From Desulfobulbus propionicus (GTDB lineage Bacteria > Desulfobacterota > Dissulfuribacteria > Dissulfuribacterales > DYOW01), in assembly GCA_020720325.1 (NCBI GenBank), contig DYOW01000008.1, positions 1 through 42,556 on the forward strand: a stretch of 42,556 nucleotides of DNA, written 5' to 3'. A program made the translations under genes and the position numbers. The first letter of the stretch is position 1. Each line of letters starts with the position of its first letter. Shown here piece by piece: positions 4,886 through 12,008 of this stretch. The notes beneath the pieces are model-generated. The model saw nothing but the letters and a program-made list of their open reading frames with translations, ran no database searches and was not told where the DNA came from.

Positions 4886-5440
4886 CTAAAAAAATACCTC
4901 TGTTAAATCCACTGAAAGTCCATTTAAGACCTCAGACTCGATTGCGCCTTCTTTTTCAACCTCTTTAATAAGTTTATATCTTCCGTTTTCGTTTTTGTAT
5001 ATTTCAATGGATTTGATTTCAGGGTCAACAATCCAGTATTCAGGAATGCCTGCGTTTTCATAAATTTTAAACTTTTTTCTGAGGTCATAGTAGGCATTTT
5101 CAGAGGAAAGGATTTCAATAACCACATCCGGAGCCCCCACTATTCTCTTTTCCTTTATTATATCAAGCCTTTCTTTTTTTATTATTAAAAGATCAGGCTG
5201 TACAATGGTTGTTTCATTAAGCTCAACATCAATTGGGGAATCATAAATTTTACCAAAATCATGCTGTTTTAACCAGTTATAAATGATTATTTCAAGATTT
5301 CTTGATACGTCCTGATGAAAAGGCACGGGCGCTGGGGTCATAATAAGTTTTCCTCCTATTAACTGATAGGGAGCTCCTTCAGGAAGAAGGTCATAGTCTT
5401 TACCTGTAAAAAAATCTTTTTGAAAAATTATTTGTTCCAT
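4886..5440 (-). CDS. Uma2-family (DUF820, PD-(D/E)XK-type) protein, copy 1
   Basis: YQLIGGKLIMTPAPVPFHQDVSRNL, VQPDLLIIKKER, PDVVIEILSSENAYYDLRKKFKIYENAGIPEYWIVDPE are typical Uma2 motifs. Confidence 0.88.
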   Translation of the reverse strand: MEQIIFQKDFFTGKDYDLLPEGAPYQLIGGKLIMTPAPVPFHQDVSRNLEIIIYNWLKQHDFGKIYDSPIDVELNETTIVQPDLLIIKKERLDIIKEKRIVGAPDVVIEILSSENAYYDLRKKFKIYENAGIPEYWIVDPEIKSIEIYKNENGRYKLIKEVEKEGAIESEVLNGLSVDLTEVFF

Positions 5441-5464
5441 TTCAATAAACTAAGTAATTAATTA

Positions 5465-6016
5465 TTAAAATACCTCTGTTAAATCCACTGAAAGTCCGTT
5501 TAAGACCTCAGACTCGATTGTGCCTTCTTTTTCAACCTCTTTAATAAGTTTATATCTTCCGTTCTCGTTTCTGTATATTTCAATAGATTTTATCTCAGGG
5601 TCAACAATCCAGTATTCGGGAATGCCTGCGTTTTCATAAATCTTAAATTTTTTCCTGAGGTCATAATATGCATTTTCAGAGGAAAGTATCTCAATAACCA
5701 CATCAGGCGAGCCAACAATCCTTTTTTCCTTTATTATATCCAATCTCTCTTTTTTTATAACAAGAAGGTCTGGCTGAACAATGGTTGTTTCATTAAGCTC
5801 AACATCAATTGGGGAATCATAAATTTTACCAAAATCATGCTGTTTTAACCAGTTATAAATGATTATTTCAAGATTTCTTGATACGTCCTGATGAAAAGGC
5901 ACGGGCGCTGGGGTCATAATAAGTTTTCCTCCTATTAACTGATAGGGAGCTCCTTCAGGAAGAAGATCGTAAACTTCCCTTGTAAAAAATTCTTTTTGAC
6001 TGATTATTTGTTCCAT
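5465..6016 (-). CDS. Uma2-family protein, copy 2 (start MEQII at 6016; the ORF-track start at 6055 looks too long)
   Basis: Nearly identical to the 4886-5440 product from MEQII onward. Confidence 0.86.
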   Translation of the reverse strand: MEQIISQKEFFTREVYDLLPEGAPYQLIGGKLIMTPAPVPFHQDVSRNLEIIIYNWLKQHDFGKIYDSPIDVELNETTIVQPDLLVIKKERLDIIKEKRIVGSPDVVIEILSSENAYYDLRKKFKIYENAGIPEYWIVDPEIKSIEIYRNENGRYKLIKEVEKEGTIESEVLNGLSVDLTEVF

Positions 6017-6044
6017 TTCAAGGAGTTCTAATTTGTGCATAAAT

Positions 6045-9089: not shown

Positions 9090-9156
9090 AAATATTTTAA
9101 TCCTCTTTGCTGCTCTTTTTCGGTCTTTTGCCTTCCTCAAGCATCTTTTTTCTTAA
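9090..9156 (-). repeat. displaced copy of the typA 3' end (partial typA duplication)
   Basis: 63 of 67 positions identical to 9841-9907 (offset 751); in the typA frame it reads …[17 protein letters not shown] against authentic …[17 protein letters not shown]. Confidence 0.9.
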
Positions 9157-9364
9157 AAAGCCATTCCTCTTCTGTTATTCCAGCCTGTTTTAAAAGCCTT
9201 CTTAAAAATCCAACGTCTATATCTGGCTCATGCTTATTGGGAATTACAAAAAGAAGGTTTCCTTTTTTCATCTTAGGATGTTTTCCTCCATAAAAGGGAC
9301 CTTCAAAACCAAGTTCTTTCAATCTGGAAACAAATCGCTCCCAGCTTACCGGAGATAGTTTCAT
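9137..9364 (-). CDS. hicA: HicA-family toxin (type II toxin-antitoxin)
   Basis: SWERFVSRLKELGFEGPFYGGKHPKMKKGNLLFVIPNKHE..IDVGFLRRLLKQAGITEEEW is a typical HicA layout with the catalytic-type His. Confidence 0.87.
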   Translation of the reverse strand: MKLSPVSWERFVSRLKELGFEGPFYGGKHPKMKKGNLLFVIPNKHEPDIDVGFLRRLLKQAGITEEEWLFKKKDA

Positions 9365-9609
9365 AATGCTGCTTTTTCTATAATATTGATGTCAAGGTTC
9401 TGAATAACAGGCAAATCAAGATTGCTTTTTAGACGGAAAATAATCCATTCCTCAAATGTCTCCCTTAATTCCTCCCTGCACTTTTCAAGGGTTTCTGCCC
9501 TACCCCATACACCCTGAACACCTGGAATTTCAGCCCAGAAAGCGCCTTCATCTTCAATTATTTCATAATGAGCTATTTCCATTGCCTTTTGAATATATTC
9601 TGTAAGCAT
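9361..9609 (-). CDS. hicB: HicB-family antitoxin
   Basis: YEIIEDEGAFWAEIPGVQGVWGRAETLEKCREELRETFEEWI; overlaps the hicA start by 4 nt. Confidence 0.87.
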   Translation of the reverse strand: MLTEYIQKAMEIAHYEIIEDEGAFWAEIPGVQGVWGRAETLEKCREELRETFEEWIIFRLKSNLDLPVIQNLDINIIEKAAL

Positions 9610-9657
9610 AATAACTCCGTTATATATTTATGGGAAGCTCTAAAATATGTATTTTGA

Positions 9658-9723
9658 GATTGCTTCGCTACCTTTCGCAATGACTGATATTGTCATTGCA
9701 AGGAACATTGTGTCGAAGCAATC
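9658..9723. repeat. dispersed palindromic (MITE/REP-like) element, copy A
   Basis: gattgcttcg…cgcaatgac / gtcattgc…cgaagcaatc inverted arms; outer ctctaaaa/ttttagag extend it to about 9634-9737. Confidence 0.75.
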
Positions 9724-9847
9724 TAATTTTTAGAGGTTGCCTTAATTTACCTTCATAAATAAGTCTCAATTTGAAATGGGATTCTTTTTAAAATTATATA
9801 ATAATATAAGATAACTTAAAATATAATTTAAATCAAAATTAAATATT

Positions 9848-11662
9848 TTAATCTTCTTTGCTGCTCTTTTTAGGTCTTTTGCCTGACTCAAGCATCTTTT
9901 TTCTTAATCTTATGTTAGTTGGAGTAACCTCTATAAGCTCATCACCCTCAATCCATTCCATAGCGCCTTCAAGTGTCATTAATCTTGGTGGGATAAGCAC
10001 AAGGTGTTCATCAGTGCCCGATGCCCTCATATTGGTTAATTTCTTTTCCCTTGTGATATTTACATCAAGGTCTGTGTCCCTGTTATGCTCTCCAACAATC
10101 ATACCCTCATACACTTCAATAGTCGCATCAAGAAACATAACGCCTCTTGGCTGAAGATGAAAAATAGCATATGCGGTTGTCTTTCCCTTTCTGTCGGACA
10201 CAAGCGCGCCAGATGGTCTGTGTGTGATTTTCCCTTGCCATGGTTCATATCCGTCAAAAAGTGTGTTTAATATTCCTGTGCCTTTTGTCTCTGTTAAAAA
10301 CATTGACCTGAATCCAAGAAGTCCCCTTGAAGGGATTCTGAATTCCATCCTTACTCTTCCTGTGCCTGGATTAGACATTTTCATAAGTTTTCCACGCCTG
10401 CTGCCTAAATTTTGTGTGACAACCCCCATAAACTCCTCAGGGCAATCCACAACCGCGATCTCCACAGGCTCCATAAGCTGACCGTCTTTTTCCTTTGAAA
10501 TTATCTCGGGTTTTGCAATGCTTAGCTCAAAACCTTCTCTTCTCATTGTTTCAATAAGAATGGCAAGCTGGAGCTCACCCCTTCCCATAACCCTGAAGGC
10601 ATCAGCGCTCACTTCTTCCATTTTTAAGCTTACATTATGCAAAAGCTCTTTTTCAAGCCTTGCTCTGAGATGACGGGAGGTGACAAATTTTCCTTCTTTT
10701 CCAGAAAAAGGCGAGGTATTTACTGAAAAAGTCATTGCGATTGTGGGTTCATCAACTTTAATCCTCTTTAATGGTTTGGGATTTTCAATATCAAGAATAG
10801 TATCGCCAATGCTGACCTCATCAATTCCTGCAATCGCAATAATATCTCCGGCGCTTAAGCTTTCTGTCTCAATCCTCTGCAAACCTTCATGGGTATATAT
10901 AACGCTTGCCTTAACCGGTATTATGCCCTCTTCCTTTGATATTCCAACACGGTCGCCTCTTTTTATAGTTCCGTTAAATATTCTGCCCACACATAGCTTT
11001 CCAAGATAGTCACTATAATCAAGATTGGTTATTAAAATCTGTAGCGGCGCCTTGACATCACCCTTAGAAGGTGGAATTGTCTCAATGATCGCATCAAAAA
11101 GCGGTCTTAAATCAGTGGAATCATCACCTATTTTTTTATGAGCGACACCTTTTTTTGCATTTGTGTAAAGAACTGGAAATTCAAGCTGCTCTTCAGTGGC
11201 ATCAAGGTCTATAAAAAGATCATAAACTTCATTTAACACCTCATCTGCCCTGGCATCCTGCCTGTCAATTTTATTTATTACAAGAATCGGCTGAAGTTTT
11301 AATCTTAATGCCTTGCTTAACACGAATCTTGTCTGGGGAAGAGGACCTTCAGCAGCGTCAACAAGGAGAACAACGCCGTCAACAACGCTTAAAGCTCTTT
11401 CCACCTCGCCGCCAAAATCGGCATGGCCCGGTGTGTCCATTATATTTATCTTTATATCATTAAAAAAAATAGAGGTGTTTTTTGCAAGAATTGTAATGCC
11501 TCTTTCCCTTTCAAGGGCATTGGAGTCCATTACCCTTTCATTAACCTTTTGATTATCCCTGAATGTTCCGCTCTGCCATAACATAGCATCCACAAGTGTG
11601 GTTTTTCCATGGTCAACATGGGCAATAATGGCAATATTCCTGTATGGAAGAATCTGACTCAT
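9848..11662 (-). CDS. typA: translational GTPase TypA/BipA
   Basis: [60 protein letters not shown]; full-length EF-G-like. Confidence 0.96.
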
Positions 11663-11860: not shown

Positions 11861-11924
11861 GATTGCTTCGCTCGCAATGGCAAACCTACTCTGTCATTGC
11901 GAGGAACGCAGTGACAAAGCAATC
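11861..11924. repeat. dispersed palindromic (MITE/REP-like) element, copy B
   Basis: gattgcttcg…cgcaatg / gtcattgcgaggaac…aaagcaatc; outer gttaattt/aaattaac extend the symmetry. Confidence 0.75.
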
Positions 11925-12008
11925 TAAAATTAACGTCTGGAACATATATCAATACTTAATTAACAAAACCTGATATTTTAATTATTTTTAATAACGGAGT
12001 TTATTAAC

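Follow-up and report, generated by a model that had tools for sequence, protein, structure and literature searches.

Islands moved by tyrosine recombinases insert at the 3' ends of genes, restoring the gene end and leaving direct repeats on both sides. Restriction-modification genes are reported to insert with long target duplications, which vary in length around 100 bp (Nobusato 2000 and Furuta 2010, cited in PMC3874152 and PMC1643837). In the Microcystis MaOC1 case, a toxin-antitoxin (TA) system is fenced by 152-bp direct repeats (PMC7935541). Effector-immunity modules of type VI secretion systems (T6SS) are considered to push older 3' regions aside through homology-facilitated illegitimate recombination (PMC5361080) and, in E. 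coli, linear DNA with a single homologous end produces mostly gene-end duplications of 109-950 bp, by recircularization and a single crossover (PMC3240628). For TA modules, a review states that the mechanism of integration is unknown (PMC7167474), and a literature search of incomplete coverage recovered no paper in which host-gene-end duplication is described as a mark generally left by TA insertion.

The locus described here lies in the window, i.e. the complete 42,556-nt stretch of Desulfobulbus propionicus contig DYOW01000008.1 that was analyzed, and consists of a hicBA pair bracketed by two copies of the typA 3' end (Table 1). Recomputing the alignment of the two copies returned the 63 identical bases out of 67 given in the original prediction, with mismatches at positions 9103, 9121, 9134 and 9135. 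The pair is unique, as only these two copies were found across the 2.44-Mb draft genome, the second with an E-value of 1.4e-22. Read on the minus strand, typA is followed by a spacer holding a MITE-like repeat, hicB, hicA, the displaced typA tail and a long ORF with N_methyl and Ig-like motifs, whose true start is probably near position ~9010, downstream of the displaced tail. Pfam matches confirm that the hicB and hicA proposed between the two tails form an intact pair; the genes are adjacent, with a 4-base overlap, and appear from their sequence to form one operon in the arrangement of type II hicBA systems. In the ORF list and Pfam results no recognizable gene besides hicB and hicA was found in the inserted segment, nor any transposase or integrase gene or remnant between the repeats. 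The proposal that hicBA is a unit inserted at the 3' end of typA, leaving typA intact and a tail displaced, is well supported.

Table 1. Features of the typA-hicBA locus and repeat-bracketed TA loci in this and other genomes.
Feature	Position or locus	Strand	Basis or remark
typA/bipA, intact, 604 aa	9848-11662	-	Pfam GTP_EFTU, EFG_C, BipA_C
typA-side repeat copy (last codons, stop and 7 bases past it)	9841-9907	-	63/67 match to 9090-9156
Inserted segment separating both copies	9157-9840	no strand	lies between the typA-tail copies
MITE-like repeat, ~118 bp, imperfect terminal inverted repeats	9628-9745	no strand	genome copies; terminal repeats read from sequence
hicB antitoxin (predicted), 82 aa	9361-9609	-	Pfam UPF0150, E 2.5e-28
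hicA toxin (predicted), 75 aa	9137-9364	-	Pfam HicA_toxin, E 1.2e-9
Displaced typA 3' end, 17 aa in typA frame and stop	9090-9156	-	63/67 match to 9841-9907
Long downstream ORF, from first start codon	6045-9140	-	Pfam He_PIG (repeated putative Ig domains), N_methyl (pilin-type) motif
hicBA (this genome)	behind typA		67-bp repeat
ParD_like/ParE-like (this genome)	behind DUF4130 gene		last 119 bp of the gene repeated, 98.3% identity
UPF0175/DUF3368-PIN (this genome)	contig C111, 236-1587 (L290)		278-bp repeat including the toxin's own 3' end
HigB/HTH (this genome)			between two copies of a palindromic element
Bracketed TA	L364		luxE-like 3' end and stop codon, 92 bp, copies identical
Antitoxin-like gene (no Pfam match) and apparently eroded toxin	L289		parB 5' end, 72 bp
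ParD_like/ParE-like	L335, 1224-2246		between copies of a complete tRNA-Pro gene and upstream sequence, 172 bp, 95%
Bracketed TA	L321		repeat is a stretch upstream of parB
Bracketed TA	L345		repeat is a P-type ATPase 3' end
Bracketed TAs	L132, L293, C9		repeats are dispersed or palindromic elements
Bracketed TAs	C111, L306		repeats are pieces of the TA itself

The displaced typA tail, read in a different frame, supplies hicA codons 71-75 and the TGA stop (9137-9139). In 20 relatives from the phylum, all but one of the HicA proteins end no more than a few residues away from this junction, and mostly at query residues 68-70, indicating that the junction coincides with the natural end of the toxin. 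The hicBA DNA itself gave only a weak 66-bp match in relatives, and the search for plasmid-borne hicA relatives only two distant cyanobacterial matches.

The occurrence of similar arrangements elsewhere in this genome was assessed by listing local direct repeats over 1.33 Mb (54%) of its length. Once scaffold joins, tandem genes, repeats internal to proteins and multicopy elements had been removed, the pairs retained were local, non-tandem and two-copy, at least 60 bp long and ~89% identical or better, with 300-2000 bp between the copies. In this 54% of the genome, four repeat pairs passed the filter and all four enclose a TA pair, an outcome with a rough chance probability of P <1e-8 given a few dozen TA modules, the thresholds having been chosen after the list was seen. 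Bracketing is nonetheless the minority state among the TA loci of this genome, being found at 1 of 8 HicA loci (the hicBA of the window) and 0 of 9 PIN loci.

A second survey took in other genomes of the phylum and toxins belonging to four families, counting only loci with enough flanking sequence. A repeat pair spans the toxin in 8 of 87 TA loci versus 1 of 464 control positions (P 2e-6), the size of this excess being approximate as the controls are typA-region loci, partly from outside the phylum, and not matched accessory genes. Counting L150 and L306, which represent the same region, only once gives 7 of 86 (P 1e-5), and removal of one more case gives P 7e-5. The parB 5' end case (L289) was found separately, outside the eight, and its TA is not the queried toxin. 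Three kinds of repeats surround the TAs: host gene ends or whole short genes, dispersed or palindromic elements, and pieces of the TA itself. Their length varies from 45 to 172 bp among the gene or gene-flank cases. In E. coli, flank duplication was not seen at the ccd module between folA and apaH, where the insert has taken the place of the central intergenic stretch, and a bracketing repeat was absent at all five K-12 loci mazEF, dinJ-yafQ, yafNO, hicAB and higBA.

The reading we favor, to which a probability of about 0.5 is assigned, is that a naked TA module entered by homologous recombination, by way of a gene end transferred along with it, in this case the typA tail. hicBA and a short upstream spacer would have arrived together with the typA 3' end of a related lineage, and the shared end would have paired and recombined with the resident one. 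The incoming fragment may have had the order typA tail, spacer, hicB, hicA. The end of hicA would have been joined to the start of the tail, e.g. when end-joining closed the fragment into a small circle, and a single crossover within the tail would have completed the integration. Nothing would be lost in this event: typA would stay intact and be followed by the spacer, hicBA and another typA tail, which provides hicA with a new stop codon, ahead of the former downstream sequence. Homology-guided insertion of this kind is the simplest account and would explain the variable repeat length, the survival of the host gene and the silent differences between copies described below. Addiction would then keep the module in place, since a cell in which the repeats recombined and deleted it would be left exposed to the toxin. 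Such retention could account for the dominance of TAs among inserts with bracketing repeats, a type of insert otherwise easily lost in a precise manner. Against entry by this route count the displaced typA copy, which encodes E at a site mostly occupied by a small residue in TypA relatives, as fits drift, the bracketing repeats that are dispersed palindromes or TA fragments, and the fact that most TAs are unbracketed.

Several of the described systems share part of this layout. The recircularized DNA of E. coli also yields foreign DNA flanked by gene-end duplications, but in laboratory conjugation, with a marked plasmid and 1 kb of homology, as opposed to the 45-172 bp of the natural cases found here (PMC3240628). 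In the T6SS displacement a toxin module likewise enters through one-sided homology and shifts an old 3' piece downstream; there, however, the secretion cluster is the anchor and the effector is displaced, whereas here the host gene remains intact (PMC5361080). Microcystis MaOC1 is comparable in having a ParE/ParD-like pair with long direct repeats directly behind a host gene, yet its repeats, which are identical to each other and contain an inverted repeat, begin 14 bp past that gene, while those of the window are the typA coding end (PMC7935541).

Insight into the origin of the duplicated ends is provided by the way in which the copies differ. Pooling the coding copies (typA, DUF4130 and parB), 11 of 14 changed codons are synonymous against a simulated mean of 3.1 (P ~1e-4), with individual values of 2/3, 3/3 and 6/8, respectively; typA on its own is not significant (P 0.18). 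L345 was left out of this conservative count as it is surrounded by multicopy repeats and as an extra 205 bp separates the flanks in G118, a relative without the TA; 4 of its 6 changed codons are synonymous and its inclusion strengthens the pooled figure. The divergence being mostly silent, the copies look like functional alleles of two lineages, a pattern that would be surprising in a displaced fragment left to drift once newly duplicated. This bears directly on a second explanation, according to which hicBA was captured at a staggered break whose long single-stranded ends were filled in, creating an exact typA duplication that drifted later. Such an event would yield an identical final structure, and fill-in is consistent with the variable repeat lengths seen in the gene or gene-flank cases. 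It fits L364 directly, where the two 92-bp copies are identical and a foreign allele is unnecessary. However, mostly synonymous divergence in the pooled copies is unexpected if the displaced one is non-functional, and none of the displaced copies in any case contains a stop or a frameshift. Taken together, we consider capture at a staggered break unlikely, if still a serious contender.

It could also be argued that hicBA was already located behind typA, and that the unit formed by the tail and hicBA was doubled and the second hicBA subsequently lost. C111 and L306 look like products of such a process, with pieces of the TA itself repeated, and at C111 the 278-bp remnant before the UPF0175/DUF3368-PIN pair suggests that a tandem TA stood behind a der-like GTPase gene and was lost in part. 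For the typA locus, two events with exact end points would be required, and neither the synonymous divergence nor the gene-end cases at unrelated loci would be explained, making duplication followed by deletion an improbable origin.

Integrase-borne islands are typically recognized by direct repeats that hold a restored gene 3' end, and the locus might be the relic of one that attached at the 3' end of typA and whose integrase has since been lost. In line with this, the original prediction proposed the typA end as an integration site. Inspection of a further 106 typA loci, taken from the order and the phylum as well as from more distant groups, argues against it: none has a downstream tail repeat comparable to that of the window (control match E 4e-26, versus only weak 11-32 bp matches at the other loci), and none has a recognizable hicA or hicB downstream. 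The relatives compared are of order level or more distant, with TypA identities of at most ~73%, the best relative contig match having 69% identity over the TypA C-terminal query. Literature titles and abstracts contained nothing on point regarding typA as an island site. Unlike tyrosine recombinase islands, the cargo here is tiny, no integrase ORF or remnant lies between the repeats and the target is different each time, so that an island relic is very improbable. Since the other TAs sit between copies of different gene ends, the pattern tracks the cargo, i.e. TA modules, and not the target. Transposons and insertion sequences differ as well, since the repeat lengths vary here, as opposed to their short fixed-length target duplications. 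With regard to integron gene cassettes, which have an attC site behind the cassette, the repeat flanking hicBA is typA coding sequence.

An assembly artefact or strain chimera is scarcely credible for this metagenome-assembled genome: although the draft consists of 204 contigs and at more than 10 of them scaffold joins duplicate perfect 55-mers at 155-bp spacing around 100 N, which could mislead repeat searches, the typA-tail copies are not such a join, being imperfect and having no N between them, a complete ORF spans the hicA/tail junction, and this junction has only a short stretch in common with typA upstream of the repeat.

Entry of hicBA through a co-transferred gene end could be a particular case of a wider process, in which a small molecule carrying a TA and the end of a neighboring gene would recombine with the resident gene end. 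That naked type II TAs in general spread by gene-end-guided homologous insertion, leaving an allelic duplication and being locked in by addiction as excision through the repeats is punished, is offered tentatively, as a doubtful though conceivable extension. Restriction-modification genes provide a close parallel, being reported as addiction-type cargo without a mobility gene flanked by variable direct repeats of ~100 bp (PMC3874152, PMC1643837). Flanking repeats are variable here too (67 bp at typA, 119 bp at the DUF4130 gene and 278 bp at C111) and the cargo, in which only hicB and hicA were recognized, is of the addiction type, with neither transposase nor integrase. In contrast to the restriction-modification case, the cargo is a type II TA, the repeats are host gene ends and most differences between the copies are synonymous, which points to recombination between alleles. 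The typA-hicBA scar and the similar cases hint at how TA pairs lacking a mobility gene move between genomes. Host-gene-end repeats, enriched around TAs and with mostly synonymous divergence, represent a concrete and countable footprint of TA insertion, which makes donor-recipient tests possible in any well-sampled species. If the general process is true, repeat scars would be a readable record of donor and recipient, and TA modules would stand beside restriction-modification genes as self-moving addiction units for which an own integrase is unnecessary.

Three further observations concern repeated sequences of the window. The palindromic element announced for the segment between the copies is present, its identity being refined to that of a MITE-like repeat with many copies in the genome, near-full-length ones having 85-92% identity and shorter partial ones occurring as well. 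It carries a GATTGCTTCG..CAATCT core, and a related palindrome is found on the opposite side of typA, at 11863-11928. Also, a 555-bp tandem duplication with 92% identity is found at 4891-5445 and 5467-6021, the second copy of which overlaps a 196-aa ORF that by eye resembles Uma2/DUF820-type nucleases.
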